Assembly (NCBI RefSeq): GCF_000420245.1
Contig: NZ_ATUO01000006.1
Location: 1 to 46,998 of the forward strand
Direction: 5' to 3'
Source of the DNA: Psychromonas hadalis ATCC BAA-638
Lineage (GTDB): Bacteria; Pseudomonadota; Gammaproteobacteria; Enterobacterales; Psychromonadaceae
Length of the DNA stretch: 46,998 bases
In this document: positions 10,783 through 46,998 of the stretch, piece after piece
Position numbering within the stretch: the first letter of the stretch is position 1
Layout of the letters: the number at the start of each line of letters is the position of its first letter
The notes under the pieces: generated by a model
The model's input: the letters and a program-made list of their open reading frames with translations, nothing else
Databases searched by the model: none
What the model was told of the DNA's origin: nothing
Program-made: the position numbers and the translations under genes

Positions 10783-10848
10783 ACGTTGCAAGCTTCACTT
10801 GCTATTGCATGAAAAGGGCCGTGAGTGAGTATCTTTTCTTATAACTAA

Positions 10849-11007
10849 TACCAATTGGATTAAGTCTGTGATCTAAATTTTACGCAGGGGGAATAGTTTA
10901 ATTCAAGGCTGAAGTTGACGTAGTGGTTGTTCCCTTTGTAAAACTTACAACGAAAAAGTAAGTTATTTTAACCAGTAAAATAGTTCAGCGATTTGTTCCG
11001 ATTGGTA
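10849..11007. mobile_element. TACC-ended palindromic MITE-like element, copy A (159 bp)
   Basis: Starts TACCAATTGG and ends CCGATTGGTA, with arms that are imperfect inverted copies (TTTTACGCAGGG on the left, CCAGTAAAA on the right). It is flanked by a 3-bp direct repeat TAA (10846-10848 and 11008-11010), read as a target-site duplication. It carries no coding capacity. It occupies the middle of the 364-base gap between the chemoreceptor remnant and the cbiB-like gene; the rest of the gap holds nothing I recognise. Confidence 0.85.
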
Positions 11008-11146
11008 TAACTCAAGATATTCATTATTTGTACTGATTTTTACGTTCAAAAACAATGAACCATGAAGGAAAAATAAGAGTAATAGGGCTTCCATGTTTTA
11101 GGTGTACTCGGTCGTGACGTTGTAATTATAGTTTTGAACTAATAAG

Positions 11147-12115
11147 TTAAAATGTCATAAGCTCAATGAGTAGTGGGAAAAAGGTATAACCGCTGAAGCA
11201 AAATAACCAAAACCAAGCACTTAAACTTAAGCGTTGCAGTGATAATTCTATTTTATCAATAGCGGGTGCTGAGTGGCAACCCAAAGTGGCGTAGGTGATT
11301 TTTTTATTTTGATAAAGACGGACGCCACCCAATTCTAGTTGCATACTTAATGCAAAACTTGAGAGCATTAAACCCGAAGAAAAATGGTGCCATAGTAGGC
11401 TCTGTTTGAATTTTTTAGGAATGTTTTTTACTGGTTCGTCATACAGTGAAAAGGTAAAGCTGATTAATATGTGTACCGGGAATAACAGTGCGGAGTAGAT
11501 AAAACTGGGAATCGACGTTAATGCAGTAAATTCATTTTTTTTGGCATTCCACGTCTGCGCGCAAATTTGTACGGTACGATAAAAAAGTGCGCCATAAATT
11601 CCGGTTAACATATACCAAAAAATCACTGCAAACCAAGATGCACAGAGCTGTAAGACCATTGACTCAATGGTCGCTTTATTTATACCCATTAAAGAGAGTG
11701 GTTTTGTGTCTCGCTCAGTTAATGACGCTAATTTAAATTTTGCTTGTGCTAAATTATTACGCTTTAATGCATGACTTATTTGCAGATACACCTGTTTTTT
11801 ATCGTGCCATGAAAGTAGTAAAAATAGGATCAGAATATCGATAGTGATAGGTTGATAAACGATGTTATATAATTGGCTGATGATTAGCATGCTAGGGAAG
11901 TAGATAAGGCTGATGGATAACAGGCTAGCCAAACGTTTGTAACCATCGCTACGTTCATCTAAATTCACTTTTACTGCTATTTGTTTAAAAATAAGCTCAA
12001 TAGCAGAGAGTGGGTTAAGATCTTTAGGTAATGATACAAAAAAAGAGAGCAGGGCAACCCCTATTAAAGAAAAATAGGTGCTGTACTGCGCTATAAAGTC
12101 AATTAAATCTTGCAT
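11147..12115 (-). CDS. CobD/CbiB-family membrane protein (adenosylcobinamide-phosphate synthase-like)
   Basis: CbiB-type proteins attach the aminopropanol arm in cobalamin synthesis or salvage. The protein is 322 aa, the right length, with several hydrophobic spans and the family core RDTKPLSLMGINKAT-ES...FWYMLTGIYGALFYRTV (about residues 135-185). The core diverges: the usual polar stretch after ES (NTSDG type) reads QLCASW, so substrate or activity may differ, and the related AmpE branch is an alternative. Its ATG follows the mtnN stop codon directly, so the two are surely cotranscribed, an arrangement also found in vibrios. Confidence 0.75.
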   Translation of the reverse strand: MQDLIDFIAQYSTYFSLIGVALLSFFVSLPKDLNPLSAIELIFKQIAVKVNLDERSDGYKRLASLLSISLIYFPSMLIISQLYNIVYQPITIDILILFLLLSWHDKKQVYLQISHALKRNNLAQAKFKLASLTERDTKPLSLMGINKATIESMVLQLCASWFAVIFWYMLTGIYGALFYRTVQICAQTWNAKKNEFTALTSIPSFIYSALLFPVHILISFTFSLYDEPVKNIPKKFKQSLLWHHFSSGLMLSSFALSMQLELGGVRLYQNKKITYATLGCHSAPAIDKIELSLQRLSLSAWFWLFCFSGYTFFPLLIELMTF

Positions 12116-12814
12116 TTAATCAAGTCTGTTGAGAATTGCTTCTACAAGCACAGAAGCATTTTTAGCCGCGATAGGGAGAAACTGCTCAAAGGAAAGCTCT
12201 GATTTTTTACCTGCAATATCAGAGAGTGAACGAATAATGACAAAAGGAATATTAAACTGGTGGCAGACCTGCGCAATTGCTGCTGCTTCCATCTCACAAG
12301 CTGCCATGGTAGGGAAATTATTACGTGCGATTTCTGCTTTTTTAGGATCCGCCATAAAAATATCACCCGTACAGATAAGACCTTGAATAATTTTTAGATC
12401 TTTGATTGTCTCTGCTGCATTTTGTGCAATATCAATCAGTTTTTTATCTGCTTTAAACGCCGCTGGCAATTGTGCCATCTGCCCAATTTCATAACCAAAA
12501 GCGGTTAGATCAACATCATGAAAACGTACTTCGGTTGAGATAACAATATCGCCAACATTTAAATTTGTATCGTAGCCACCTGCTGAGCCAGTATTGATAA
12601 TAGTATCTGGCTGAAAACGTTCTAATAATAGTGTTGTTGCAATAGACGCTGCAACTTTACCGATACCTGATTTAGTTAAAATTACCTGTTTGCCATTTAA
12701 TTGGCCTTGGTAAAACTCACAACCCGCAATGATTGTTGTTTCACAATTTTGTAATTTTGCTTTTAGGAGCGTTACTTCTTCATCCATTGCACCGATAATG
12801 CCTATTTTCATCAC
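12116..12814 (-). CDS. mtnN: 5'-methylthioadenosine/S-adenosylhomocysteine nucleosidase
   Basis: Cleaves adenine from methylthioadenosine, S-adenosylhomocysteine and 5'-deoxyadenosine, feeding methionine salvage and autoinducer-2 precursor formation. The protein is 232 aa. It opens MKIGIIGAMDEEV, carries the substrate loop NTGSAGG, the ribose-binding EMEAAAIA and the catalytic Asp in RSLSDIAG. Two ATGs stand in tandem at the start; the second gives the usual N-terminus. It is the first gene of a two-gene unit with the cbiB-like gene. Confidence 0.96.
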   Translation of the reverse strand: MMKIGIIGAMDEEVTLLKAKLQNCETTIIAGCEFYQGQLNGKQVILTKSGIGKVAASIATTLLLERFQPDTIINTGSAGGYDTNLNVGDIVISTEVRFHDVDLTAFGYEIGQMAQLPAAFKADKKLIDIAQNAAETIKDLKIIQGLICTGDIFMADPKKAEIARNNFPTMAACEMEAAAIAQVCHQFNIPFVIIRSLSDIAGKKSELSFEQFLPIAAKNASVLVEAILNRLD

Positions 12815-12954
12815 TTAACTCTCTGTAAACTCATCATAAAAGCTTAATGTTAGCACAATTGCGATAACTTCTTCATACAATGGTTTTTTTGTTTCACTTA
12901 ACTGTGTAAAATCGTTAATCATATTTTAAAATAGTTAAATGATTAGGGATCACC

Positions 12955-14226
12955 ATGAATGCTTTACTTGAAGATTTAAAAGCGCGCGGCCTTGTTGCAC
13001 AAACAACAGCCGATGAAGAGTTACATGAACATTTATCAAGTGGTTGTCAAACACTGTACTGTGGTTTTGATCCAACGGCAGATAGCTTACACATTGGCAG
13101 TTTAGTGCCACTGTTAACATTGAAACGTTTTCAAGATGCGGGTCATAAACCATTGGCATTAGTGGGTGGTGCGACAGGCTTAATTGGCGATCCAAGTTTT
13201 AAAGCCGCTGAGCGTAAACTCAATACCGATGATGTTGTTGAGGATTGGGTCGGGAAAATAAAACAGCAGGTCAGTGCTTTTATTGAATTTGGTGATAAAG
13301 AGAATGCTGCTGAAGTGGTGAATAACCTTGATTGGATTGGCAAAATGGATGCTATCTCATTTTTACGTGATGTGGGTAAACACTTCAGTGTTAATGCAAT
13401 GATTCAAAAAGAGTCGGTAAAACAGCGTATTGACCGCGAAGGATCGGGGATCTCATTTACCGAGTTCAGTTACATGTTACTGCAATCTTATGACTTTGCT
13501 GCCCTTAATAAGATGAACGGTTGTTCATTGCAAATTGGTGGGTCGGATCAGTGGGGGAATATTACTGGTGGTATTGATCTAACACGTCGTATGAATCAAC
13601 AGAAAGTGTTTGGTTTAACACTGCCTTTAGTGACCAAAGCCGATGGCACCAAATTTGGTAAAACAGAGTCGGGTACTATCTGGCTTGATGCCGGTAAAAC
13701 GTCACCTTACGCATTTTTTCAATTCTGGGTAACCACGCTTGATGCCGATGTTTACAAATTTTTACGCTACTTTACTTTCCTTTCAATTGAAGAGATTGAA
13801 GCGATTGAAGCTAAAGATAAAGAGATTAAAGGTCGTCCTGAAGGTCAGGGTATTTTAGCCAAAGAGGTAACACGTTTAGTGCATGGTGATGAGGGTTTAG
13901 CGTCAGCAGAGCGTATTACAGAAGCACTATTTTCAGGGGATTTAAGTTCATTAAGTGAATCAGATCTCGCGCAACTTGCGCAAGATGGTTTGCCATCAAC
14001 AGAAGTGACAGAAGCAGAGAAAACCCTAATTGAGTTATTAACCAGTTGTGAGTTGGCTAAGTCCAATAAAATGGCGCGTGAATTTACTAAAAATGGCGCG
14101 GTAAGTATTAATGGTAAAAAAGTGACTGATAGCGAGATGCTACTACAAAAGTCTGATGCATTGTTTGGAAAGTATACGGTGATCAAACGTGGTAAACGTT
14201 TATTTAACCTCTTTATCTGGAAATAA
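12955..14226 (+). CDS. tyrS: Tyrosyl-tRNA synthetase
   Basis: Class I aminoacyl-tRNA synthetase that charges tRNA-Tyr. The protein is 423 aa. The HIGH-type motif is HIGS at 46-49 ([10 protein letters not shown]), the tyrosine-binding region reads [12 protein letters not shown], and the KMSKS-type loop is KFGKT at about 233-237. The C-terminal S4 RNA-binding domain occupies about 355-423 ([10 protein letters not shown]-like region, [11 protein letters not shown]). It is divergent from mtnN with 140 bases between, and is followed after three bases by a small exported-protein gene. Confidence 0.97.
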
Positions 14227-14229
14227 AAT

Positions 14230-14898
14230 ATGATTTTAAAAAAATGTGCGGTTACATTGTTAACGCTTTTTTCTGCATCACTGGTTGCTAATGTGAATAC
14301 ACAGGTTCAAAAAGAGGAAACATGGTATGACTTAAGCGACCCCCGTACTGTTTATTCTAGCTTAAGTGTTGCCGCTGGCAATGAAGGGGTCAATATCTCT
14401 GCTAGTTATGGTGGTTACTTAAATGGTCAGTATAAACATAAAATAACCGTTGAAGCGATGAACGACCTTGAGTATTACAACCTAGATTATATGCTGGTTA
14501 ATGCGAGTACAGACTCTGGTTTTACCGTTGAAAGTACATGGGATAGAGATATTTGGGGAATTAAAAACCTTAACGATACGTCATTGGGCGTTTTTGCAAA
14601 AATTCCACTGCTTAATAATAAATTAAATATTTATCCAAAATTAAATTTAGGTATGTTGTGGGGCGATGATGTTAAAACAACGACCTATATAAAATTTGAT
14701 GCAACAACACGTTACACCTTTAATCGTATGTTTTGGGTGGGTGTTACACCCACTTATACTTATGCGATGAAAGGTTATAATGTAAGAGAGTGGGATGCTT
14801 CATTAGATGCGGGTGTACAACTTTCACCCGCATTTGCGCTTGCCGCTCACGTCAATACCGAAGAAGAGTTTTGGGTTGATGTGATTTTTGCTTTTTAA
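14230..14898 (+). CDS. Exported, probably outer-membrane beta-barrel protein of unknown function
   Basis: I do not recognise the family. The protein is 222 aa with a signal peptide (MILKKCAVTLLTLFSASLVA, residues 1-20). The mature part alternates polar and aromatic residues in short beta-like strands (YGGYLNGQYKHKITVEAM, LNIYPKLNLGMLWG, FWVGVTPTYTYAM) and ends in phenylalanine (FWVDVIFAF), the signature of barrels folded by the BAM complex. It starts three bases after the tyrS stop, with GGAA inside the tyrS end serving as ribosome-binding site, and is closed by a strong terminator, so it appears cotranscribed with tyrS. Confidence 0.8.
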   Translation: MILKKCAVTLLTLFSASLVANVNTQVQKEETWYDLSDPRTVYSSLSVAAGNEGVNISASYGGYLNGQYKHKITVEAMNDLEYYNLDYMLVNASTDSGFTVESTWDRDIWGIKNLNDTSLGVFAKIPLLNNKLNIYPKLNLGMLWGDDVKTTTYIKFDATTRYTFNRMFWVGVTPTYTYAMKGYNVREWDASLDAGVQLSPAFALAAHVNTEEEFWVDVIFAF

Positions 14899-14933
14899 AT
14901 AATATTGAGATTTAAGTAAAAAGTGATTATTTT

Positions 14934-14960
14934 AGGCCACTTAAATTGAGTGGCCTTTTT
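14934..14960 (+). terminator. Rho-independent terminator of the tyrS operon
   Basis: A perfect eight-pair stem AGGCCACT/AGTGGCCT (14934-14941 with 14949-14956) with a seven-base loop is followed by a T run (TTTTTATTTTTT). It ends the tyrS and outer-membrane protein transcript. Confidence 0.93.
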
Positions 14961-15070
14961 TATTTTTTCAAAAAAGTGTGAAGACTCGCAAGTAACGTCT
15001 ATTATAAAATTACCTTTCGTTAAACAGTACGTTAAAATTAGCGCTCAGTTTTGTTTCGGAATTAATAATA

Positions 15071-17602
15071 ATGTTCACACGACTCTCATATTTTATCCTA
15101 TTTTTTCTGCTCTCTTCTCCTGCTTTTGCAGTGTTAAATGAATCCACTAAACCAAGTGGGATTAGCATCTATTTACAGCAAAATTTACCTTATTCAGGGT
15201 TTAATGCACATAAACAAGCGCAAGGATTATATGTTGATTTTTGGAATGCTTGGTCCTTAAAAACAGGCATTAGTGTTAAATTTCATCCCTATCTGCAACA
15301 GGATATTCACTTACTTTTATTAGAAAATAACCCTGCTGTTTATAGCGGTTTACAGCCTTTATTTTCAGAGAGTCAACAACTAAGTAAAATCCCATTAATA
15401 GCGATTAAAAGCGATCTATATAGTGTGTCTTCTCACAGTAATAGAGTTTCCAAAGCATTGGTGGATAAGCAAACTGAGATTATTGTTGGTGGACTTCTAC
15501 CTGAAGCACATCAATTACCCTTATTAAGAGATAAAAAAAATATTATCTACCAAGAGTATCCCGGTTTATTAGAGTTACTGCTGGATCTTTATAACGATAA
15601 AATTGATGCACTTATTCTTTTTAATATTGGCGAGGATAGTGTTGGTTTATTAGATAGTTTGTTAACCACGCTATTAAACAAAACATCTATTGATGGTCGT
15701 CATAATCAACTGTTTGCTTTTTTACCCGCCGATCAGGAAAATTTATTTAAATGGTTACAGTGGGGAAAACAGTTTAAACAGTTGGATGATAAATTACGCA
15801 TCGCATTGGTGGAAAAAAATCAGCCCTGGTGGGGGGCTTCAGCTACCATGACGCGTAATGTTTTGTTAGCAAGTGGTCTGTTTTTTATCTTTATTCTTGT
15901 TGGTCGTTCAAAGCGTAAAAAAGATCGTCAGTTTAAAGATGTCCTTGACTCCTCCCCTTATCCCCTTGTTATTTTTGCTTTAGATGGTAACGCCATCTTT
16001 TATCTTAATGATGAAGTAAAATCGCTGTTTCCTTTTAAAAAGAAAAAGAAAAAATTTATTTTTGAAGAGGCTGAAAACCAACTGTTATTATCTCGCTTTA
16101 TCAATAAAGTCAGCCATCAATCCATTATTGAAAATGCCTTGGTACGTTTATTGGTCAATGATACTTTTCATGATATCGAGATTTTTGCGAAACGTATCCA
16201 TTATAAACGTCAAACTGCTTGGTTATGCCATCTTAAAGATGTGACTGCGTTGTTAAGCGCTGAGCGTAAGTTGACTGAGGAACGAGAGCTATTACGTAAG
16301 GTACTTGACTCTATTCCAGAGCAAATTGCTTTTAAATCTCCTAAAGGCACGATTATTGGATGTAATACCGCATGGGCCCAAGCCAATAATACAACGGTTT
16401 CACATGCGACCGGACGAAGTGTTGCCGATATGATGACTCTTCCTGAAATAAAAAAACAGAAACAGCAGGAAGCAACGGTGTGGACGGGGGAAACCTATAA
16501 TACCCAAGAATGGATCCAGCAAAATAAATCCGTTAATTTGAGTTTGGTTAATATTACCAAAGTGCCGTTATACAACAATAAAGGCACTATTTTTGCCATT
16601 TTATCGATCGACAGTGATATTACCGCGTTGCATAATTTAACCAAGCAGTTAAAAGATGAAAATCTGCAACGTAAAGAAACAGAAAAAGCGCTCTCTAAAC
16701 AGAGTGTTTTATTAAGCACAGTATTTGCAGCTAGCTACGATCCGATTGCGTTATTAGATCATGAGGGGCGTATCCTTGGTGCAAATAACTCTTTTGCAAA
16801 ATTGATGAACTCTGATCCTGATGAGATGGTTGGTAAGTTGCAAAGTGAGTTTTTATCTTCTGATAAAGCAGATTGGGCAGATCGCCAAAATCAAGAAGTA
16901 CTCGCGTCTGGTAAGCCTATTATTTTTGAAGAGTTACTCTTTATTGGCGATAAGAAAACATGGTACGAAGTACATAAAGCGCCGTTTAAAGATGCTGAAA
17001 GTCACTCGCAAGGTATTGTTATTATGGCGCGAGACATTACAGTGCGTAAATTAACAGAGGAAAAATTAAGCTCTGATGCTTCTGATTTTGAGCAGAAGGT
17101 GCTTAATGATCAACTCACTAATATTGCTAATCGATGCTCTTTTGATGCACACTTTACCAAATTATGGCAGGAGGCATGTGATGAACAAGAGATGCTTTCT
17201 GTGGTGATGTGTGATATTGATTATTTTAAATCTTACAATGATAATTATGGTCACCAAATGGGCGATGAAGCCTTAAAAATTATCGCTACTGCATTACAAG
17301 CAACTGCCAATGAGATGGGCTGTTTTACTGCACGTTACGGTGGTGAGGAGTTTGTGGTGATTATCAAAGGGGGCAATGCCACTAAAGTATTTAGAGCGGT
17401 TGAAAAATTACATGAAGCGATTAAACAAACAAAAGTGGAACATCTCTATTCTGATGTGAGTCGTTATGTCACTATGAGTATGGGCTTATCGAGCCTTTTT
17501 CCAAGTGATCTTAATACCATGAAAATACTTATTGCAGAAGCTGATGCTGCTTTATATGATGCAAAAATGTCAGGACGCGATCAAATAAGTGTGCATGATT
17601 AA
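15071..17602 (+). CDS. Periplasmic-sensor, multi-PAS GGDEF diguanylate cyclase
   Basis: Membrane receptor predicted to make c-di-GMP. The protein is 843 aa. It has a signal peptide (1-20, ending SPAFA), then a periplasmic region of about 240 residues resembling a bacterial substrate-binding protein family 3 (SBP_bac_3) fold, and one membrane span at about 263-279 (NVLLASGLFFIFILVG). Three PAS-like domains follow, near 288-390, 406-520 and 546-660. The GGDEF domain starts at about 679 (DQLTNIANRCSFDAHF), with metal-binding DIDYFK and the active loop GGEEF at about 757. No RxxD inhibitory site precedes the loop (the stretch reads NEMGCFTARY), unlike the other GGDEF protein here. Ligand unknown; amino acids or peptides are typical for this sensor type. 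Confidence 0.88.
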   Translation: MFTRLSYFILFFLLSSPAFAVLNESTKPSGISIYLQQNLPYSGFNAHKQAQGLYVDFWNAWSLKTGISVKFHPYLQQDIHLLLLENNPAVYSGLQPLFSESQQLSKIPLIAIKSDLYSVSSHSNRVSKALVDKQTEIIVGGLLPEAHQLPLLRDKKNIIYQEYPGLLELLLDLYNDKIDALILFNIGEDSVGLLDSLLTTLLNKTSIDGRHNQLFAFLPADQENLFKWLQWGKQFKQLDDKLRIALVEKNQPWWGASATMTRNVLLASGLFFIFILVGRSKRKKDRQFKDVLDSSPYPLVIFALDGNAIFYLNDEVKSLFPFKKKKKKFIFEEAENQLLLSRFINKVSHQSIIENALVRLLVNDTFHDIEIFAKRIHYKRQTAWLCHLKDVTALLSAERKLTEERELLRKVLDSIPEQIAFKSPKGTIIGCNTAWAQANNTTVSHATGRSVADMMTLPEIKKQKQQEATVWTGETYNTQEWIQQNKSVNLSLVNITKVPLYNNKGTIFAILSIDSDITALHNLTKQLKDENLQRKETEKALSKQSVLLSTVFAASYDPIALLDHEGRILGANNSFAKLMNSDPDEMVGKLQSEFLSSDKADWADRQNQEVLASGKPIIFEELLFIGDKKTWYEVHKAPFKDAESHSQGIVIMARDITVRKLTEEKLSSDASDFEQKVLNDQLTNIANRCSFDAHFTKLWQEACDEQEMLSVVMCDIDYFKSYNDNYGHQMGDEALKIIATALQATANEMGCFTARYGGEEFVVIIKGGNATKVFRAVEKLHEAIKQTKVEHLYSDVSRYVTMSMGLSSLFPSDLNTMKILIAEADAALYDAKMSGRDQISVHD

Positions 17603-17613
17603 TTTTCAAAGAG

Positions 17614-17646
17614 AGCTAGAAGCGCGAAAGATTCTAGCTTTTATTT
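17614..17646 (+). terminator. Terminator between the GGDEF receptor and folE2
   Basis: A perfect eight-pair stem AGCTAGAA/TTCTAGCT (17614-17621 with 17632-17639), ten-base loop, then TTTTATTTAT. It sits between two convergent genes and its T tract serves the plus-strand gene. Confidence 0.8.
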
Positions 17647-18565: not shown

Positions 18566-18815
18566 GAGGAAAAACTCCCATTAACACGGTATAAAAATAA
18601 GTAAATTTAGGCGATGCATTATAAACGGGTTCGTCACAATTAAAAACCACCAAATGAAAAGGATTATCAGTGATTGACTTGATCGCTTATTTATTGACCA
18701 TTAACTTGCTCTGTTAAGGTAATAACTGAAAATTAATTTAGAAAATGTGTAATAACCTGAATAATTTAAGGGCGATATTGCTTACAATTGGACTTTATTT
18801 TTAATAGAGATTGGC

Positions 18816-31099: not shown

Positions 31100-31759
31100 T
31101 TACTCGGCTTCTGGCTTAATTGGAAACTCGGGAAGTTTATCCCCATCATTATTTGGGTAGATAATAAACTCACCGTGATATTTTACTTTAGATTTGTAAT
31201 CGGTCATTTTATGAAGTAGTAAGTTTTGCTCAAAAGCACAGTTAACTAACTCTGATAAATCACCACGCAGGTAAAGTGAAAGAGGTTTGATTAATGTACC
31301 TTGCTCATCAAAACAGTCGTGCATTTGTGTTTCACAAATAATCAATGATGAAGCACCCCCACTGTGGCGGTTTAATTTATTGCCCACCACTAAATCGGTA
31401 TTGACCATCCACTGTTCATTTTCAAGCTGTGCAATAAGCGCTTGTAGTTTTGTAAGGTTGACGGCTTGTACCTGTTTATTCTCATCTAATACTTGGTTGT
31501 AACACTGCTGTAGATAGATAAACTGCTCTTTAAGTTGTGCTCCTTTGCCAAGGCTACGCGCTTTGCTCTGCCATGCTTTAAGTGTCGGCAGAACAATGGT
31601 ATCAAAGCGTTTCTGTTTCATCGCCGTGGTGACCCAAGCTCCAAAATAGTGCGCTTCATTAAGTGGGTTTTTCGGTGTGCGCCCCGAGGCTTGAGATGCT
31701 TCTAATTCTGTTAATGCGGTTGAGATTAATGTATAAATTTGTTGCGAAAAAAGAACCAT
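31100..31759 (-). CDS. DUF2913 family protein
   Basis: The protein is 219 aa with the ATG at 31759, preceded by AGG; the frame is open further upstream to 31912 but that extension is the mobile repeat at 31783-31893 and not gene. The N-terminal part (ALTELEASQ...AHYFGAWVTTAMKQKRF, LGKGAQLKEQFIYL) fits the DUF2913 pattern known from Vibrio and Shewanella. Function unknown; mostly helical, soluble, no signal peptide. It is followed after eight bases by the putative degenerate-EAL gene, so the two probably form an operon. Confidence 0.7.
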   Translation of the reverse strand: MVLFSQQIYTLISTALTELEASQASGRTPKNPLNEAHYFGAWVTTAMKQKRFDTIVLPTLKAWQSKARSLGKGAQLKEQFIYLQQCYNQVLDENKQVQAVNLTKLQALIAQLENEQWMVNTDLVVGNKLNRHSGGASSLIICETQMHDCFDEQGTLIKPLSLYLRGDLSELVNCAFEQNLLLHKMTDYKSKVKYHGEFIIYPNNDGDKLPEFPIKPEAE

Positions 31760-31782
31760 AAAAGACCTGTTTTTAAAATTGA

Positions 31783-31893
31783 TACCAAACCCAATAAATA
31801 TGTGATCTTTTGGGACGTGAGACTTTAGTCTCGCCTTTACTATTGGCGCAGCTAAAGCAGTACGATATGACCAGTTAATTAATGGAATTGGTA
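31783..31893. mobile_element. TACC-ended MITE-like element, copy B (111 bp, short form)
   Basis: Starts TACCAAACCC and ends GGAATTGGTA, flanked by TGA on both sides (31780-31782 and 31894-31896). It is shorter than the other copies and has an internal hairpin GAGACTTTAGTCTC. It lies immediately upstream of the DUF2913 start, so it may carry or disrupt that gene's promoter. Confidence 0.8.
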
Positions 31894-32015
31894 TGAGTAT
31901 AAAGATAAGCAACAGTATACAAGAATATTAGCTGTATCAGTAATAAGATCAATGAATAATAGTTGACTTAAATGCTAGGATATTGGCTTTATAGCAATTA
32001 CATTAGAGGAAAAGT

Positions 32016-32505: not shown

Positions 32506-32923
32506 ATACCCGTTACCATCCAAAATGCTTTATTCAGTCACTAGCTCGGATACCAAGGCGAGGCGTAACATGATGCTCTTACGAGCGATTAATAAAAAAG
32601 ACATTAACCCTCTATCGGTAGAATGAAATAAAAGACTTTCATTCTTTAATGGCTAGCCCTTCTCGAATGTTGCAACGCTGAATTGCCATGGTTACACAAG
32701 AGGCGAGCTAGCGACCCGTAGGGCAAGCTTTGAGGCAAACATCTTCGTTGTCTTTCGAGAGATTAACAAAAAGACGTTAATCCTCTATCGACATTGATTA
32801 AATGCCTGCATTTAGCAATTCGTTAGAAAGTATCGATTGAACCAGTTAGACCTTCAACTTTCTGCCTAGAATCTGTTCACCTCACAGCTTGCTGAATTTT
32901 TCATTTTGGATGGTAACGGGTAT
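32506..32923. mobile_element. 418-bp element with 22-bp perfect terminal inverted repeats
   Basis: The ends ATACCCGTTACCATCCAAAA (plus TG) at 32506-32527 and its exact complement at 32902-32923 enclose a non-coding interior. Inside, two direct copies of a 35-36 base unit (32582-32617 and 32756-32790; both begin CGAG and end CTCTATCG) match at most positions. No open reading frame of useful length is present and no target duplication is seen (GCA versus TAT). It fills most of the 483-base gap between the CopD-like gene and yajD and looks like a non-autonomous transposable element. Confidence 0.75.
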
Positions 32924-33317: not shown

Positions 33318-33321
33318 CTCA

Positions 33322-33478
33322 TACCATTCCGCTTAATATAATGATCAGGTTTTACGCAGGGTAAATGACTAAGGTCAAGGCGCATGATTGAGTAATAGCC
33401 GGCTATTGCGATTGAATGCAACGCAGATATTAGTCATTTAAACCAGTAAAAACGATCAGTTACTTAGGCGGATTGGTA
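33322..33478. mobile_element. TACC-ended palindromic MITE-like element, copy C (157 bp)
   Basis: Starts TACCATTCCGC and ends CGGATTGGTA, flanked by TCA on both sides (33319-33321 and 33479-33481). The arms are imperfect inverted copies around the centre AGCCGGCT (near 33400). Its first ~100 bases match the copy at the window end (46897-46998) except for one base, so this subfamily spread recently. Confidence 0.9.
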
Positions 33479-33539
33479 TCATTTAACAGAGACAATGAGT
33501 AAAGGACATTTGCTCCTTTTTTATCGCTTTTATTCGCGC

Positions 33540-37449: not shown

Positions 37450-38549
37450 ATGATGCCCCTTTTTCAAAAAACACTCATCACCGCGCTTATTTTAACAAGT
37501 CATGCTGTTTACGCGAGTGCACTACTCCCCGCAGAATTAGCATGACTAACGCCACGTGGAAATACAATAAACAATCAGCCTATGCACTGCAACATGATGA
37601 TTATTGTGCTGGTACACAAGGTAGCATTGATGAAATTGTGGTGCTTGCTCTTTTAGCGCGTGATTTAACGGCTTCATTTGGGGTAATTGCAAAAACCTGT
37701 TGGGGGGCGTTATGGGGAAAAGCACGCTCACATGTGGAGGCTGGTTTTACCCGGTATCATTATTCTATGCACCACACGCCTGCTTTTAAACCCTCTTGGG
37801 AAAAGAGTGATTTTAAGGTTATTTGGGATAACAAGCGTGATATTACAGATGCCAATAAAAGAATAAAGGATAAAACAGGTTATACCCCAACATTAATGGC
37901 AATGCCCTACGATATTGGTAGTGATGAAAGTTATCAATATGTGCGTGACCATCCTGAATTAATTGCAATGCGTGCACCCGTGGAAAACAATGGGGTATGG
38001 GTTGGAAATGTAGGCGTTAATAGTAAAAACTTTCACAATAGTTACAAACTAAAAGTGGAAATTTTTCATAAATGGAGCCCGTATTGGAAGCTGGGTAAAA
38101 ATAGGCGTTTAGCTGCATTCTTAAACGATACTATCGAACGAGAAGGATTTGGCCTGCAATATTTTCATGGTGTTGCCGATGAATCCTACGTCTCCATTGC
38201 AAAATCAGAATACCTGAATTTTTTAGATAAACTCAAAAAAGCCTCTGATGAACATTTAGTCTGGGTGGCCGATGCCAGTGAGATAGTAAACTATCGTTTC
38301 GCACGTGAATATTGCAGTTTAGTAGAAACGTCTCAAACAGAAAAGAGCCGATTATTTTCCGTTCAGGGAACGGTAACAAAAACGGACAACTGTACCAATG
38401 TAGACAGAGAGTTAACTGCGATGGCGATTGTCACACTCACAGTAAGTCATGTTAAACAGGGCGGAGCTGATTTAGTTTTTACTCAGATTGATGGTGTATT
38501 ACAGTTTGAATATCAGATCAATAAAGGTGATGTTGAGGTGGTTTTTTAG
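37450..38549 (+). pseudogene. Polysaccharide deacetylase-like exported protein, frameshifted at the signal peptide
   Basis: The first 31 codons (37450-37545) encode a good signal peptide (FQKTLITALILTSHAVYA) that stops at TGA. The rest is in a different frame from an ATG at 37542 overlapping that stop (ATGA) and runs 335 aa without a signal. The body has features of NodB-type deacetylases: ALQHDDYC in place of the first Asp motif and YHYSMHH for the H-x3-H metal site, with a C-terminal beta-rich domain. Either a one-base frameshift killed an exported enzyme, or the two parts are recoded or misassembled. The body shows no other stop, so the lesion is recent. Family call moderate. Confidence 0.6.
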
Positions 38550-38613
38550 GGGCTATTGGTTACTAATTAGCAACAATTAAAAAGTAAACTTTATCTTGGC
38601 GATCATTTAATAT

Positions 38614-38632
38614 AGCCCTCTAAAAGAGGGCT
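38614..38632. other. GC-rich hairpin between the deacetylase and ettA remnants
   Basis: Perfect eight-pair stem AGCCCTCT/AGAGGGCT with a three-base loop, between convergent genes. No T tract of note follows on either strand, so it may be an attenuated or bidirectional terminator. Confidence 0.5.
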
Positions 38633-38646
38633 CTCATTATTAGATG

Positions 38647-39194
38647 TTATGAAATACGTTTGTATTTAATGCGATGTGGCTCAGCTGCTGCAGCACCAAA
38701 GGTTTTCTTCAGGCACACTTCATAATCACTGTAGCTACCCTCAAAAAAGTTGATTTTCCCTTTGTCACGGTAATCAATGATATGGGGCGCAATTTTGTCT
38801 AAGAACCAGCGATCATGCGAGATAACCAATTTTAGTCCCTGTTAATGCGCGTGTTTCTCCTTCAAACTCTTTATCAATGCCCGCCATAATACGCAGTAAG
38901 GTGGATTTACAGGAGCCGTTCAAACCTAATACCAATAACAGTAAATATCTGATCTATTTTACTGGTTAAAACAACTCACTTCCGCGTTGTAATTTTCGTA
39001 AAGGGAACGTCAACTTACGCCTTGAATTAAGCTGTTTCCCCTGCGGAAAATTTAGATCACATACTTAATGTAATTGGTATAACACGCCAATTTTAGCGCC
39101 GGGGGAAAAAACTCAGTGAGATGTCTTTCAGGATTGTACGTTTAGGTGGAAGCACCTTGCTGACTTGATTCATGGTAAAAATAAACTGTGCCAT
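38647..39194 (-). pseudogene. ettA: ettA remnant (ABC-F translation factor) with mobile-element insertion and large deletion
   Basis: EttA is the ABC-F protein gating the first steps of translation elongation, normally about 555 aa. Three pieces remain on the minus strand. From the ATG at 39194, MAQFIFTMNQVSKVLPPKRT to SFFPGAKIGVL is the intact N-terminus. Copy D of the TACC element interrupts it. Then GLNGSCKSTLLRIMAGIDKE to KIGYL is the first Walker A (with Cys replacing the last Gly of GxxGxGKS). Next a deletion of about 420 codons joins to VISHDRWFLDKIAPHI and the natural C-terminus ending RIKYKRIS. The junction sequence GGTTATCT fits both sides, so the deletion probably arose at a short direct repeat, and it changes the frame. 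Confidence 0.92.
38930..39079. mobile_element. TACC-ended palindromic MITE-like element, copy D (150 bp), inside ettA
   Basis: Starts TACCAATAACAG and ends GTAATTGGTA, flanked by TAA on both sides (38927-38929 and 39080-39082). It is the same type as copy A, in reverse orientation (shared AAATTTAGATCACA, CCTTGAATTAA and CCAGTAAAA-type blocks on the complement). Removing the element plus one TAA restores the ettA codons for GVLGLNG, which proves the insertion and the 3-bp duplication. Confidence 0.92.
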
Positions 39195-40307
39195 TTTTGA
39201 TCTCTTAAATACAGATAAAAGTAAGTTATTAAAATAGAGGTAGTTACTGTAAGGCGGGGTTGCCGTGGGGGATTTGAGTTATCGTTTAGGACCCTACTTA
39301 ACTTGGATTTTGATTGATAATCATATAAATTTCAGCACTGAATGTTAAAATTTATAATATCCGATTTAAAGTGCCATTAATGAGAATATAGGCATTGATT
39401 AACAACTTATATTACATCCGCATTCAAATGTTTTGGATATTTTTATGTGCCAATTCTGCTCGTAGTAATCACACTAAATAACAGATAAATGTTAGCATTA
39501 ATACAATGCTTCGTCTTAATGTTGCATTAATTAATCGTAAAGTCAGTTGTTTTTTTTGATGTTAAAAATTGGTTAATGAAAGGTTAAAATTTGAAGTTAT
39601 TTATTTTAAATTTGCTATTTGTTAGTTATCTACTACGCTTTAAATTTTGTCATTTTTTATGGGGTTGTTATTCCCTGTCTTTCCTACTGTCGTTTTTTAT
39701 TATTTGATTTTTATACTTCTCTGAGATTGTGTTATACGTTGATTTAGTTGACTTTATTATTATATTTTAAATCATATCGTAATGCTAAAGATATCGCCTT
39801 ATATTGTTTGAAATGTTAAATATATGTTGTTTTTTATATTTAGATGCAAGTCGCTTTTACCTTTGTTATTTTTAATTCCCCTGTGGATGCTTATTTTATT
39901 GAGTTTTGTTGGTTTTTTTGTCTCAAAATCTAAGTGTAATAAATAATGTAAATGTGATCATTGTTTCTGTTTTAAAAATTACCATGTATTTTAATTGTTT
40001 AACAAGATCCATTCGTGTATTTTTATATTCTGTTTTTTTTGATATTTATAGTTTTAGATATAAAGGTATTGTTTTTTATTTTCTTTTGTTGTTGACCATA
40101 AGGTGATCTTTCTCTTCGCTTTTTAGATGAATTTCAAGTTATAAAATAATGTATGGAAAGGTCGGGTGAATAACAAAAAATCAGTGGTATAGGTTCTTGC
40201 ACAATGAAAATCCATGATCTGCATTGTGCGTATTAACTGGCGTTGCTATTAGTGACAACAACATAATCCGAAAGCTAGAGCTAATAAAAGAGAAGTGCGA
40301 GTACGAT
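39195..40307. other. AT-rich intergenic stretch with no recognisable gene
   Basis: About 1.1 kb between the ettA remnant and fimT. The plus strand is strongly T-rich, particularly 39540-40110, with many stop codons in all frames; the one open frame near 39906-40106 is low-complexity Phe/Val/Ser and not credible as a gene. It must contain the promoter of the pilin cluster, but I cannot single one out. No tRNA, repeat family member or coding remnant was recognised. Confidence 0.6.
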
Positions 40308-40796: not shown

Positions 40797-41307
40797 AACT
40801 GATAACAACAAACCGAAATTAAAACATCTTTTTAAGCTAATAACTAAGAAGCATAGAGGTAGTACGTTACTCGAGGTTTTAGTTGCATTACTCATTGTTG
40901 CAATTGGATTTTTAGGGTTAGCTTCGATGCAATTGATAAGCTTAAAAAACCTCAATAATGCACAATTTCGTACGTTGGCTACCGCTTATGCATATGATAT
41001 GGCAGAACGTATGCGCACTAACCGGGCTGCGGTATCAGCTGGTTTTTACGATGCCATTGATGCGACGGAAACTGATCCCGGATGTAGCTCTTGCTCCGTT
41101 GAGCAAATTGCTCAGTTAGATGCTTACCAATGGAATCAGCTAATAGGAAACAGCATTATTTCAGGCGGGCTACCGACCGGAACGGGCAAGGTCGAAAGTA
41201 AGGGGGGGGGAGTGTTTGAGATAACGGTGGCCTGGAGGGAACAACAACAATCGAGTTCTGGCGGTAAAATTGATAATGTTAATTTCATTGTAAGATTGCA
41301 ACTTTAA
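40789..41307 (+). CDS. pilV: Type IV pilus minor pilin PilV
   Basis: The protein is 172 aa. The start is a GTG at 40789 inside the end of fimT, so translation is coupled. The unusually long, basic leader (KLKHLFKLITKKHRG) precedes the cleavage site G|STLLEVLVALLIVAIGFLG, with Glu at +5. NAQFRTLATAYAYDMAERMRTNR is the typical PilV continuation. A CSSC pair is present at about 99-102. The protein is part of the tip complex with PilW, PilX, FimT and PilY1. Confidence 0.92.
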   Translation: MFKTDNNKPKLKHLFKLITKKHRGSTLLEVLVALLIVAIGFLGLASMQLISLKNLNNAQFRTLATAYAYDMAERMRTNRAAVSAGFYDAIDATETDPGCSSCSVEQIAQLDAYQWNQLIGNSIISGGLPTGTGKVESKGGGVFEITVAWREQQQSSSGGKIDNVNFIVRLQL

Positions 41308-41366
41308 ATTCAACTAATTGATATGAAGTAACTATTTTATCTGACTCAATTGATAACAGGGGCACT

Positions 41367-42344
41367 ATGCGTATTCATATAGCCAAAAATCATGATATTT
41401 ATATCATAAGACAAGGTGGTTTTTCATTAATAGAATTAATGATAGCAATAACGCTCGGGTTATTAGTGTTGTTTTCCGTTTCGCAAATGTTTCTTGCCAG
41501 TGTGCAGAGTATGCATTTACAAAATGCGTTTTCTCGTGTGCAAGAAAATGGGCGTATCTCATTAGAATTAATAAGTCGCGATATCCGCGGCGCTGACTTT
41601 TGGGGATGTCTGCACAATACAAGTTTGATAGTGAATCATTTAGATACCACTGACTCGGATTATAATGCCAGCGCTAATCCAAGTGGTCAACAGGGTGTAA
41701 CGGGTGGAAATGATGTCACAGCTCGTACCATCGCGACGATATCAGTGGTTGATAATACCGATACCCTAACCTTGCGAGGAGCGAGAAGCTTTTCTGATGT
41801 AAAAGTTATTACGCCGTTTATGGCAACTCCATCTGCGGATATTAATATCGTTAATGGGGCGGGTATTTCGAAGGGAGATGTGGTCATGATAAGTAATTGT
41901 CAGGGGGCGGATCTGTTTTCAGATACGGATGCAGCGTCTACTATTCTTGGTCACAACATTGCTCCACCATCAGCGGGTGCAGTAAAAAATGTGACTCAAG
42001 CATTTTCTCAGACTTATACCAGTAGCGCTCAAATACTTGTTCCTTATGTTAAAACCTATTTTGTAGGCACAAACATAGCGGGCAGTACTTCTCTTTATGT
42101 AAGCGAGGATGGCACAGCCAAAGAGTTAGCTAGAGGAATAAGTGATTTACAAATAATGTACGGTGAAGATACAGATGGTGACAATAGCGCAGACACGTTT
42201 AGTACCGCTTCTGGCGTTGGTGATATGAATAAAGTACTTTCGATCCGCTTTGAATTGGTTAGTAAAAACAGCAATGGTGCTTCTAGTCAGGTAGAAAAAC
42301 ACTATGCGCTTACCGCTAATATACGTAACAGAACATTGCAATAA
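41367..42344 (+). CDS. pilW: Type IV pilus minor pilin PilW
   Basis: The protein is 325 aa, a large minor pilin. The class III leader is IIRQGG|FSLIELMIAITLGLLVLF, with Glu at +5, followed by the PilW block FSRVQENGRISLELISRDIRGADFWGC. The C-terminal domain contains DLQIMYGEDTDGDNSADTF, a pattern also found in other PilW proteins. It is followed 13 bases later by pilX. Confidence 0.93.
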   Translation: MRIHIAKNHDIYIIRQGGFSLIELMIAITLGLLVLFSVSQMFLASVQSMHLQNAFSRVQENGRISLELISRDIRGADFWGCLHNTSLIVNHLDTTDSDYNASANPSGQQGVTGGNDVTARTIATISVVDNTDTLTLRGARSFSDVKVITPFMATPSADINIVNGAGISKGDVVMISNCQGADLFSDTDAASTILGHNIAPPSAGAVKNVTQAFSQTYTSSAQILVPYVKTYFVGTNIAGSTSLYVSEDGTAKELARGISDLQIMYGEDTDGDNSADTFSTASGVGDMNKVLSIRFELVSKNSNGASSQVEKHYALTANIRNRTLQ

Positions 42345-42357
42345 AATGGGTAATAAC

Positions 42358-42888
42358 ATGTATAAAAAACAGTGTGGTGCCGTGTTAGTCGTTAGCTTAA
42401 TTATATTATTCTCAGTTACTTTATTAGTGTTTTCAGGTAATAAATCGGTACTCATGCAAGAAAAAATGGCCATGGCAGTACGCGACGCGCATGTGGCGTT
42501 GCAAATGTCAGAGTCAGGAATAAGAGATGCTGAAAAACTTATTGAAACCTACGTTAGCACTGTCGCCTTTAATGTGCAGGGAACGGGTGGGCTCTATAGC
42601 CAAGATAATGGGCCGTCCAATATTTTTGATACGAATGCCTGGCTTAGTAGTAACACCATTGACGCCAGTACGCAGGTATCGGAATCGGGCCGTGTTGCGA
42701 GTTATTTCATTGAACACCTTGGGTTATTGTCAGTGCCTAATGCGAATTTAGATGCTCTTAATATCAACGGATACGGTCAAACGTCAGGTGGTGGTGATGT
42801 GAATATATTCAAAATTGTTTCTCGTTCTCAGGGAGATAACGGTGATGCTGAGCGAGTTGTGGTTAGTTATTATGGAAAGCGTTTTTAA
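42358..42888 (+). CDS. pilX: Type IV pilus assembly protein PilX
   Basis: The protein is 176 aa from the ATG at 42358, which has GGGT upstream; ATGs further upstream lie in the pilW end and lack a ribosome-binding site. The N-terminal helix follows the PilX pattern (CGAVLVVSLIILFSVTLLVFS, QEKMAMAVRDAHVALQMSESGIRDAEKL), with no Glu at +5. It acts with PilW and PilV in presenting PilY1. It is followed 28 bases later by pilY1. Confidence 0.92.
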   Translation: MYKKQCGAVLVVSLIILFSVTLLVFSGNKSVLMQEKMAMAVRDAHVALQMSESGIRDAEKLIETYVSTVAFNVQGTGGLYSQDNGPSNIFDTNAWLSSNTIDASTQVSESGRVASYFIEHLGLLSVPNANLDALNINGYGQTSGGGDVNIFKIVSRSQGDNGDAERVVVSYYGKRF

Positions 42889-42916
42889 TGATGCCAGAAA
42901 TGAAAGGAAAGCAACA

Positions 42917-45900
42917 ATGAACAAACTATCTACAAAGGTATCTCTCATTAAGATGGCGATTGTTGTCGCCCTTGGTTATTCAAATATTACCTTTGCAACT
43001 GCCTTGGTACTCCCCACAGAGCCTTTAATTACCGCCACATCTGTGCAGCCTAATATGATGCTATTGATCGACAGTTCTGGGTCAATGGGTAATATTGTCG
43101 AGCCCGATGCTTATGATGCAACGGTAGACTATTATAACTGTCCGAACAATAGAGAGTTTAGTGGTGGTACGGTGACTATTCGTATTAAAGCGAATGGTGA
43201 GGTTAAATTTAATGGCAAAAGATTTGGTACAACGGGCAATCGACGCTGTTTTAATGATGATACGCTTTATGATGCACAGCTTAATGCAAATGCAAATGAC
43301 GGTTCATATAAAGTCCCTGCGAATGATTACTCGAGCAATGGTGGTACTTACTACGGCACGGCATCCTATAAAGGTAATTTTTTAAATTGGTACTTTTCTG
43401 ATGCAAATTTTGGCGTTGGAGCACGAAAAAAGCCAGGCACAAAAATACGCATGGAAGTGGCTCAAGAAGCAGCAACTGCGCTGATTGATAGTTTACAAAA
43501 TATACGCGTTGGTATTGCAAGGTTTAATGGAGGCACTGGCGCAAGAATTATCGGCAATGTTACTGATTTAACTCTCAGTAACAAAACAGCCTTTAAAACC
43601 GCGATTGATTTAATCACATTTGGTGGTGGAACACCCCTAGGTGAAGCGCTGTCACAAATAGGACGTTATTATACGCGGGGTTATTCTGCTGAGAGTAACT
43701 TACTTATTCACCCAAATACTGCGCCCACTTCGATTAAAACTAACAATGTATTTATACAAAGCCCGGCATACGCATCAGGGTTAAGTGCCCCTGACGCTGT
43801 CATTCAAAACTGGTGCCAACCCAATTTTGTCGTTGCAATGACAGATGGGCAGCCTTCATCGGATAGTAACGTAAGTACTTATTTACGAGACTATGATAAT
43901 GGCACCGGGTCGATACTCGACGATGTGGCACTCGCAATGTATGAGATTGATTTGCGACCAGATCTAGACGATAGCGGCGAAGAGGTAATCAATAATGCCT
44001 CCACTTATATCATTGGATTTGCAGATGAAAGTGTAACAAGTAGTACCTTGTTGCAAAATACTGCTAGCAATGGGGGCGGGGAGTTTATCGGGGCATCAAA
44101 CGCTAGCGAATTAGCGCAAGCCTTTAAGAAAACGCTTGACAATATCTTTGCAAAAGTTGCCTCGCGTTCGGGGGTTTCTTTTAATGCGCCTTCACTGAGC
44201 ACCGATAACGCAGTTTATTCAGCCAACTTTAATAGTGCTCAATGGTCGGGAAGCTTACAGGCATTTGAACTCTCTGGGAGTGGTGAAATCGCTACAACAG
44301 CGACTTGGGATGTAACGACTAAGCTTGATGCCATACTTGATGCAAACCTTAGCACAACAAGGAATATTTTTACTTACAATCCGGTGACTAAAAAGGGGGT
44401 TCCATTTACCAGTGGCAGTTTAAGTCCTGCGCAATTAGCTGATCTTAGCAAAGGACCAGAAGGTAGCACGGGCATCGACAACTTAATTAATTATATTAGC
44501 GGTAAAAGAGCAGATGAAGGAGAGGGTGTCGCAGAGTATCGCGTTCGCTCAAGCCGACTGGGTGATATCGTCAATTCAACGTCCGTTTACGTTGGTGCGC
44601 CACAATTAAATTGGCCGAATTGGACCAGTGCTAATAAAATAGGAGCAAGTAGTGCTAACTATTCAGCGTTTAAAACGGCTCAGGCGAGTAGAACACCAAT
44701 GCTCTATGTCGGCGCTAATGATGGTATGTTGCATGGTTTTAATGCCTCGCTAACTGGCGTGGATGCAGGTAAAGAAAAGTTTGCCTATATCCCCAATATC
44801 GTCTATTCCACAGAGCCGAAAGCTGGGCTAAATTATCTCGCTAATAAAAATTATGCGCATCAGTTTTATGTTGATTTAACGCCGACAGTGAGTGACGTAT
44901 ACATAAATAGTGCATGGCGTACCGTGCTTATTGGTGGGTTACGTAGCGGAGGAAAAGGGTTATTTGCACTGGATATTACTGACCCCACTAAATTTTCAAG
45001 TTCAACAGCCAATGCACAGAAATTAGCCCTATGGGAATTTAGCAGTACAGATGATAGCGATTTTGGTTATAGCTACAGTAAACCAACGGTTGTTATGATG
45101 GCTAATGGTAAATGGGCGGTGATCGTTGGTAATGGTTATAACAATGCGGGCACAGATGGTAATGCCAAGCTGTTTATTTTATTCCTTGAGCCTCAAGACT
45201 CGAATGATGTTTGGAATAAAGAGGTTGATTATTTTGTAATTGATACAGGCGCAGGTACTGCCGGTACACCTAATGGCCTTTCTACGCCGAGTGTAGTTGA
45301 TACCAACGGTGATGGTGTTGCAGATAGAGTCTACGCCGGTGATTTAGAGGGCAACATGTGGGCATTCGATATTAGTGCTAGTAATGCGAGCAACTGGAAG
45401 GTGGATTACGGTACTGTCAGCGCACCTAAGCCCCTCTTTACTGCGAAAGATAGCACGGGCAAAGCACAACCTATTACCAGCGCACCTATTATCTCTAAAA
45501 ATGTATCGCCAACGGGCAGTGCTCCTGATTTATTAGTTTTTTTTGGAACGGGTAAATATATTGAAGAAACAGATAAAAGCAATGTCGATGTAATGAGTTA
45601 TTACGCTGTTATAGATAAAGGGAACCAGGAACAACTTCGAGGCAATTTAACCCCAAGAACGCTGAATACTTTTGATAGTAACAAACGCTTGATCACTGGA
45701 GCTTCATTTAGCTGGGCTACCTCGTCGGGTTGGTACTTTGACCTCAATAATAATAGTACGGCGCAAGGGGAACGCGTGATCTCAGACTCTCTTATTCGTA
45801 ATAACGTGTTGTTTTTCACTACTGTCATTCCAGACCTTGATAGTGGGGATGTCTGTACCGCTAATAGCGATAGCTGGATAATGGGGGTTGATTTAGCGAC

Positions 45901-46183
45901 AGGGAAAGCGCCTACATTTGGGGTTTTTGATGTTAATTTTGATGGTGTTATTGATGACTCATCGGTAGCCGCCACCGCATTAAATGATAAAAATAATAAT
46001 GGAATTGTTGATGATCTGGAGTCGAGTGGGGTGAAAACGGCTAATTCAATGGTTGCTGAGGTGAATATTTTGGGTAATAACGCCTACCTCAACGATGCAG
46101 ATGGCCAAACAGAAATAAAAATGATAAATACCGGTCCAAGTGCACAAGAGGGAAGGCTTTCTTGGGAAGAACAAATTCGCTAA
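42917..46183 (+). CDS. pilY1: Type IV pilus tip adhesin / assembly protein PilY1
   Basis: Large exported, calcium-binding tip protein needed for pilus extension, twitching and surface sensing. The protein is 1088 aa from the ATG at 42917, with AAAGGA upstream and a signal peptide (1-28, ending ITFA). The N-terminal von Willebrand A domain has the MIDAS motif MMLLIDSSGSMG (about 48-59) and AMTDGQPSSDS. The C-terminal PilY1 beta-propeller (about 560-1000) opens MLYVGANDGMLHGFN and carries the calcium loop DTNGDGVADRVYAGDLEGNM. A second EF-hand-like stretch follows (DVNFDGVIDDS, DKNNNGIVDD). Confidence 0.95.
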   Translation: MNKLSTKVSLIKMAIVVALGYSNITFATALVLPTEPLITATSVQPNMMLLIDSSGSMGNIVEPDAYDATVDYYNCPNNREFSGGTVTIRIKANGEVKFNGKRFGTTGNRRCFNDDTLYDAQLNANANDGSYKVPANDYSSNGGTYYGTASYKGNFLNWYFSDANFGVGARKKPGTKIRMEVAQEAATALIDSLQNIRVGIARFNGGTGARIIGNVTDLTLSNKTAFKTAIDLITFGGGTPLGEALSQIGRYYTRGYSAESNLLIHPNTAPTSIKTNNVFIQSPAYASGLSAPDAVIQNWCQPNFVVAMTDGQPSSDSNVSTYLRDYDNGTGSILDDVALAMYEIDLRPDLDDSGEEVINNASTYIIGFADESVTSSTLLQNTASNGGGEFIGASNASELAQAFKKTLDNIFAKVASRSGVSFNAPSLSTDNAVYSANFNSAQWSGSLQAFELSGSGEIATTATWDVTTKLDAILDANLSTTRNIFTYNPVTKKGVPFTSGSLSPAQLADLSKGPEGSTGIDNLINYISGKRADEGEGVAEYRVRSSRLGDIVNSTSVYVGAPQLNWPNWTSANKIGASSANYSAFKTAQASRTPMLYVGANDGMLHGFNASLTGVDAGKEKFAYIPNIVYSTEPKAGLNYLANKNYAHQFYVDLTPTVSDVYINSAWRTVLIGGLRSGGKGLFALDITDPTKFSSSTANAQKLALWEFSSTDDSDFGYSYSKPTVVMMANGKWAVIVGNGYNNAGTDGNAKLFILFLEPQDSNDVWNKEVDYFVIDTGAGTAGTPNGLSTPSVVDTNGDGVADRVYAGDLEGNMWAFDISASNASNWKVDYGTVSAPKPLFTAKDSTGKAQPITSAPIISKNVSPTGSAPDLLVFFGTGKYIEETDKSNVDVMSYYAVIDKGNQEQLRGNLTPRTLNTFDSNKRLITGASFSWATSSGWYFDLNNNSTAQGERVISDSLIRNNVLFFTTVIPDLDSGDVCTANSDSWIMGVDLATGKAPTFGVFDVNFDGVIDDSSVAATALNDKNNNGIVDDLESSGVKTANSMVAEVNILGNNAYLNDADGQTEIKMINTGPSAQEGRLSWEEQIR

Positions 46184-46228
46184 TAATTGATTTAACGATA
46201 AAAACTGCATTACAGTAAGGGAATAGTT

Positions 46229-46714
46229 TTGAAAAATAGGAAAGGTTTCACGCTTATTGAGTTACTGGTTGTGATAGCTATCATTGGCATATTAGCAATG
46301 ATAGCTTATCCCTCCTATCAGGAGAGTGTGAAAAAATCACGGCGGGTTGATGCACAATCAGCACTGCAAGGCTTAGCGCTGGCGCTCGAACGTTGGTATA
46401 CCACCAAGGGAACCTATACGGGTGCTGCCACAGGAGGCGCTAATACCGGTGCCCCTGTTATTTTTTCGACAAAGTCACCAATAGATGGCGCGGGTACTTA
46501 CTATCACCTTAAAATTCAGTCTGCATCTTCAAGTACTTATGTTATTGGGGCAGAGCCTGTCGGTGCTCAATCTGGAGATGGGGTATTAATATTAAAATCC
46601 ACAGGCGCAAGAGGTTGGGATATTGATAATGATGCGAATGGTCTTCTTTCCGGACTCGGGGCATCACCAAACGAAGTTGAATCGACAGAAATGTGCTGGA
46701 AAAGTAGCTGCTAA
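46229..46714 (+). CDS. pilE: Type IV pilin PilE-like
   Basis: The protein is 161 aa. The start is TTG at 46229, preceded by AAGGGAATAG; no ATG or GTG exists between the pilY1 stop and the leader. The leader is the very short KNRKG|FTLIELLVVIAIIGILAMIAYPSYQE, with Glu at +5, followed by ARVDAQSAL-type (SRRVDAQSALQGLALALERWY) and a C-terminal CWKSSC disulphide pair. It ends the minor-pilin cluster, as in the fimT-pilVWX-Y1-E order of Pseudomonas and Shewanella. Confidence 0.93.
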   Translation: MKNRKGFTLIELLVVIAIIGILAMIAYPSYQESVKKSRRVDAQSALQGLALALERWYTTKGTYTGAATGGANTGAPVIFSTKSPIDGAGTYYHLKIQSASSSTYVIGAEPVGAQSGDGVLILKSTGARGWDIDNDANGLLSGLGASPNEVESTEMCWKSSC

Positions 46715-46822
46715 CTCACTTTAAGTGTGTCATACCTTGACGGTTTCAAGATGAAAAAGACGAGACTGATAAAGAATTGGAAACCTATTTTAAACCGTTT
46801 CATCCTCGAATTTTAGGCGTAA

Positions 46823-46896
46823 TACCCTTCCGCTTAATATAATGATCAGGTTTTACGTGGGATAAATTACTAAGATCAAAGCGCATGATTGAGTAA
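46823..46896. mobile_element. TACC-ended element, copy E (left half only, interrupted)
   Basis: Starts TACCCTTCCGCTTAAT after TAA (46820-46822) and matches copy C, with several substitutions, as far as GATTGAGTAA. There copy F begins, so copy E was the target of a second insertion. The right half lies beyond the window end. Confidence 0.8.
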
Positions 46897-46998
46897 TACC
46901 ATTCGCTTAATATAATGATCAGGTTTTACGCAGGGTAAATGACTAAGGTCAAGGCGCATGATTGAGTAATAGCCGGCTATTGCGATTGAATGCAACGC
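46897..46998. mobile_element. TACC-ended element, copy F (left 102 bases, runs off the window)
   Basis: Starts TACCATTCGCTTAAT and matches copy C base for base except for one missing C, through the AGCCGGCT centre to the window end. It sits at a TAA (46894-46896) within copy E, consistent with the TNA target rule. Confidence 0.85.

Follow-up and report, generated by a model that had tools for sequence, protein, structure and literature searches.

The window analysed here, 46,998 nt of Psychromonas DNA, is the entire contig C6 of a 3.98-Mb draft genome in 351 contigs, and it contains several copies of a small repeated element with TACC/GGTA ends. Copy A (10849-11007, plus strand, 159 bp) is flanked by TAA on both sides (10846-10848 and 11008-11010), copy B (31783-31893, plus strand, 111 bp) by TGA (31780-31782 and 31894-31896), copy C (33322-33478, plus strand, 157 bp) by TCA (33319-33321 and 33479-33481) and copy D (38930-39079, minus strand, 150 bp) by TAA (38927-38929 and 39080-39082). 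These positions and flanking triplets had been given in an earlier, sequence-only reading of the window and were found to be exact when the sequence was read again. Two further partial copies had been placed at the end of the window. Both are present, but they are nested rather than separate: the left part of a C-type element, E (46823-46896, plus strand, preceded by TAA at 46820-46822), is interrupted by another C-type copy, F (46897-46998, plus strand), which is inserted in E at TAA (46894-46896) and truncated where the contig stops. The last part of the window (46770-46998) overlaps the end of contig C109 (L007), which carries the remainder of E and a complete F; there, both elements are flanked by TAA on each side, and the far end of E reads GGTG, not GGTA. 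The assembly of contig C6 breaks inside this nested pair. The one-base difference noticed between C and F is a single deletion in F over 103 positions, and A and D, which lie in opposite orientation, have an identity of 78%.

A scan of the window for the arrangement TNA-TACC...GGTA-TNA, with at least 13 of 20 terminal bases matching, recovered exactly the copies A to D, compared to a maximum of one and a mean of 0.005 in 200 dinucleotide shuffles of the window. The elements had been described as near-palindromic, and RNA folding against 200 shuffles agreed with this for A, C and D (z-scores of -5.5, -7.2 and -3.6, respectively), but the z-score of -2.5 for B means that this copy is weakly palindromic. 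Rfam gave no match above the gathering scores for the mini-elements. That they have no coding capacity holds in substance, although a mechanical open frame (31100-31912, minus strand) crosses B. A and C are intergenic. D sits within a gene fragment on the minus strand (window 38500-40223), which, to judge by its motif, may be ettA, and because the insertion falls between GVL and LGLNG of this fragment, the TTA codon at that point is the duplicated triplet. A stretch related to the interrupted fragment (90% over 131 bases) is found in contig C109.

The elements are 111-160 bp in length and non-coding, and their ends follow the pattern TACCAAT...TAA...TGATC. In their own genome, the C type was matched in at least 44 places (40 of 170 candidates scored) and the A/D type in at least 41 (40 of 151 candidates scored), so that the two commoner types together occupy at least 85 matched places, with fragments counted and with overlapping contig ends possibly counting one copy twice, as for F. 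A 25-base pattern matched 40 stretches in the genome collection, all of them in Psychromonas, and the A type was present in 23 of 24 Psychromonas genomes at E<=1e-10. A distant-mode search of plasmids and phages gave no match to copy C. Three viral contigs (L121, L122 and L123) contain a 19-base core pattern, and the scan of these contigs listed no element with a duplication. In one genome, G013, dozens of A-type copies with equal scores are spread over many contigs, as if from a recent burst, and only weak transposase fragments were matched there. The A and D types differ at bases 9-11 of their ends, yet the arms remain complementary, as if they changed together.

We tabulated the flanks of 37 near-full copies in the draft genome, 35 of which have both flanks and two of which are cut by contig ends. 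Identical 3-bp TNA repeats were found in 32 of the 35 (18 TTA, 12 TAA, 1 TCA and 1 TGA) and none had a repeat of 4 bp or more; the three others (L005, L029 and L044) differ by one base each. All 32 copies that have TNA at both flanks repeat its middle base, where permutation gave 14.7 on average (p<=1e-5). Named loci were scanned as well and gave 27 rows, all TTA or TAA, the duplication being itself a condition of that scan. Insertion beside an existing copy seems common, as 7 of the 37 copies abut another element across a common TNA, for example the tandem elements in L031 and L045.

The state before insertion was examined in relatives that lack an element, by asking whether they hold TNA once, TNA twice or TNA-TA-TNA. 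Among 11 comparisons covering seven insertion events, with the empty sites chosen from among the matches listed, TNA once was the best model in 10 (six of the seven events), by 4.5 to 10 bits above the next model. The set includes copy B, compared with two relatives lacking the element, and a tandem pair D-TTA-B, for which three repeats (window 74-122 among them) served as the empty state. The exception is L163 against L090, in which TNA-TA-TNA was ahead by 4 bits beside a local ACTAGTT duplication. Copy C had no clean orthologous empty site among the relatives examined. A different repeat occupies the first 122 bases of the window. Contigs C33 and C184 have stretches similar to it (L042 and L046), and a further copy of this repeat (L045) carries an inserted tandem pair of mini-elements. 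The claim of the sequence-only reading that these are miniature inverted-repeat elements (MITEs) with 3-bp TNA duplications is borne out by the 32 of 35 flanked copies and by the empty sites: they are short, non-coding, present in many copies, and carry terminal inverted repeats and target site duplications.

A partner for the MITEs was found through their ends. The right end of copy B (27-29 bases) recurs at contigs C185, C111, C104, C88 and C85, and a fragment of an IS630-like transposase adjoins the B-like end at four of these five (not at C111); the last 29 bases of B are identical to the element end that adjoins such a fragment in C185. The protein at C88 matched the IS630 profile NF033545 with 138.9 bits (cut-off 100) and also DDE_3, and NF033545 was above cut-off in all four further DDE frames scanned (138.9-150.6 bits overall), which places the transposase in the IS630 family by profile. 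Among solved structures, the Sleeping Beauty transposase was the single match, and a weak one (E 0.0065). The genome studied here has, in its draft contigs, no complete autonomous copy but only parts, at C18, C85, C88, C104, C165 and C185; the one in C18 (L312, 22757-22918) is a decayed copy in which a piece of the upstream transposase frame is tandemly repeated. Other Psychromonas and further genera do have complete autonomous elements, 1072-1121 bp long in the 33 copies that show a duplication. Two frames overlap in these elements: the upstream one contains helix-turn-helix domains, and the downstream one, which lies in the +1 frame, is a DDE frame of about 208 residues. An A7 run lies in the overlap in all five copies inspected. 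At E<=1e-20, the transposase was matched in 48 of 394 genomes of the order, in 10 of 115 genera. Eight of the 24 Psychromonas genomes had no match at this threshold, and seven of these eight have the A-type MITE.

The consensus ends of the MITEs and of the autonomous elements agree in TACCAAT, in TAA near position 14 and in TGATC at positions 21-25, the last being weaker in the right ends of the autonomous elements (exact GATC in 8 of 30). Seven of the eight ends of A to D match some end of an autonomous element at 21-25 of 26 bases, compared to at most 18 for 362 other 26-mers of the window that start with TACC; the right end of A, with 18 of 26, equals the best of this background and does not exceed it. 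The MITEs thus have ends in common with an autonomous element at seven of eight ends.

For the footprint of the autonomous elements, ends were chosen by a rule blind to the footprint, which reduced 86 near-full DDE matches, including duplicates, to 55 unique copies with both ends and left 15 rows without. Identical 3-bp repeats flank 33 of the 55 (16 TTA, 13 TAA, 3 TCA and 1 TGA), and by label these copies belong to seven genera (g1, g6, g16, g21, g25, g79 and g87). TNA stands on both sides in 50 copies, and no repeat of 4 bp or more was seen; the middle base agreed in 33 of these 50, where permutation gave 19 on average (p<=1e-5). The other 22 copies had no identical repeats under the blind rule. 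Four of them (L155, L214, L237 and L241) are picks of a wrong end and appeared with a duplication in other scans, and in 17 of the 55 copies the two flanking TNA differ in their middle base. Among the misses there are also some pairs with exchanged flanks, for example L242 (TAA/TTA) with L245 (TTA/TAA), a pattern that recombination between copies would produce. To judge from these sequences, both the MITEs and the autonomous elements duplicate three bases, T-N-A, on insertion, usually TTA or TAA, and the empty site holds the TNA once. In place of the 2-bp TA duplication of IS630, the partner element has a 3-bp TNA.

Canonical relatives behaved differently. Of 30 canonical IS630 loci fetched as controls, seven had clear CTAG ends (L254, L255, L258, L259, L261, L262 and L265) and showed no outer 3-bp repeat; the rest had no usable ends or other ends and were not counted. 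A second repeat family in the window (32507-32922, 416 bp, with 22-base perfect inverted ends, TACCCGTTACCATCC...) has at least 70 matches in the genome (40 of 92 candidates scored), and none of its 12 unique copies had a 3-bp repeat or TNA on both sides; it looks like a MITE of the ordinary TA type. In a tree of 32 DDE sequences, which was built without the controls L254, L258, L259, L281, L282 and L275 missed by the motif filter, a branch with support of 99/98 separates 20 members labelled TNA from eight labelled TA or CTAG. Identical repeats flank 18 of the 20, the other two (L125 and L160) having TNA with differing middle bases. Two sequences of undecided label group with the TNA members, and some end branches are long. 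In the closest outgroups, which are 34-42% identical to the query, the flanks of L319 and L325 look like TA by eye, L320 is ambiguous, and L280 and L132 are undecided.

From the ends and the footprint that are common to both, we infer that the MITEs are very probably moved in trans by this branch of the IS630 family (Tc1/mariner-like), whose elements of about 1.1 kb have the same ends. The sequence-only reading had proposed instead a transposase of the IS5 family elsewhere in the genome. A 3-bp TNA duplication is the habit of the IS1031 subgroup of IS5, and the duplication observed here fits it. The search for a transposase with matching ends did find one, but in IS630 and not in IS5: among 14 loci with the IS5 profile PF01609, several of them cut by contig ends, none had a TACC/GGTA pair with a 3-bp repeat. 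Because elements that encode an IS630 transposase and have such ends exist in this genome and in its genus, the footprint that had suggested IS5 would lead to a different enzyme, and an IS5 partner is, by the PF01609 loci, very improbable, although the identification of the MITEs and of their duplications stands. Copies of the MITE are also abundant in some genomes without a strong transposase match, such as G022, which consists of one contig and has 35 MITE matches but no transposase match at E<=0.001. This would be expected if a different TNA-duplicating transposase moved the MITEs and if the likeness of their ends to those of the IS630 branch came from convergence or old descent. The ends that the MITEs and the IS630 branch have in common, with the TGATC box, and their exactly matching footprint argue against this, and we consider it unlikely.

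It might also be supposed that these are ordinary IS630 elements with a 2-bp TA duplication (TA|CC...GG|TA) that merely prefer TNATATNA targets, because the profile of the transposase is that of IS630, each end has a TA, the TA model is preferred at one of the 11 empty sites (L163 against L090), and 17 of the 55 autonomous copies have unlike middle bases between the two TNA. This is quite improbable, since the relatives hold TNA once in the other 10 comparisons and since the middle base agrees far above the permutation mean in both the MITEs and the autonomous copies. The strong RNA hairpins of A and C and the position of both copies between genes would suit repeats selected for structure or regulation, such as hairpins or terminators, which are not transposable at all. 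Such an origin is hardly credible in view of the TNA duplications, the empty sites, the nested and tandem insertions and the insertion into a gene fragment, and Rfam holds no match above gathering scores. Empty sites with exact duplications argue against structural repeats as the origin, whereas single copies may have taken a later role.

If the IS630-family branch moves the MITEs in trans, its transposase would bind the common terminal repeat and the TGATC box and then excise the element. Its 3' ends would then be joined to T-N-A with a stagger of 3 bp, compared to the 2-bp TA of canonical IS630, and the TNA would be duplicated by repair. In TNA-TA-CC...GG-TA-TNA, the TA on the inside at each end may be a former TA target that became fixed in the element. 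As to the cut sites, a 1-bp duplication with the ends ATACC...GGTAT would look the same as a 3-bp duplication with TACC. We consider it reasonably likely that a branch of IS630 shifted from a 2-bp TA to a 3-bp TNA, with the old TA fixed in its ends, and spread with large MITE families through several genera, which would be a natural change of stagger within the bacterial Tc1/mariner group.

In the parts of the literature available to us, IS630 and its relatives are described as duplicating TA (PMC2170065, PMC10045372), and a table for Thermus gives a duplication of 2 bp for IS630 (PMC6352166). ISY100 and IS630 resemble the autonomous elements here in the NF033545 and DDE_3 profiles, the N-terminal helix-turn-helix, the length of about 1.1 kb and the terminal inverted repeats, but they duplicate TA in the passages seen (PMC2170065) and not a 3-bp TNA. 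Departures from TA are on record in the wider group, again as far as the available parts of these papers go: TAA for Fot (pogo), TATA for Sailor and 3 bp for Zator/ISAzo13 (PMC7386202, PMC8533490, PMC10045372). These lie in or near the IS630-Tc1-mariner group, but are other transposase lineages; in NCBIfam, which may or may not include an ISAzo13 model, the DDE frames of our elements matched only IS630. The closest parallel in organization, from the portions available of its description, is RUP of Streptococcus pneumoniae, a small non-coding repeat paired with IS630-Spn1 through its ends, which differs in that it targets TA and has another sequence and other hosts (PMC2229807). A search for the term 'IS630' in the paper describing the P. 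ingrahamii genome (PMC2405808) found no occurrence in its text, and our literature searches, which did not extend to ISfinder entries, found no report of TNA duplications for an IS630 element. We therefore regard the TNA duplication as new for an IS630 element as far as the literature was searched, while exceptions to TA in the wider group were already known.

By the usual rules of thumb, IS630/Tc1/mariner elements are recognized by a TA duplication, and a TNA duplication suggests IS5; the IS630 branch described here breaks both rules. For this reason, MITE families that are assigned from their footprint and nothing else may have been attributed to the wrong transposase. Since relatives of both kinds exist, with TA and with TNA, it also becomes testable which part of the transposase sets the choice of target and the stagger.
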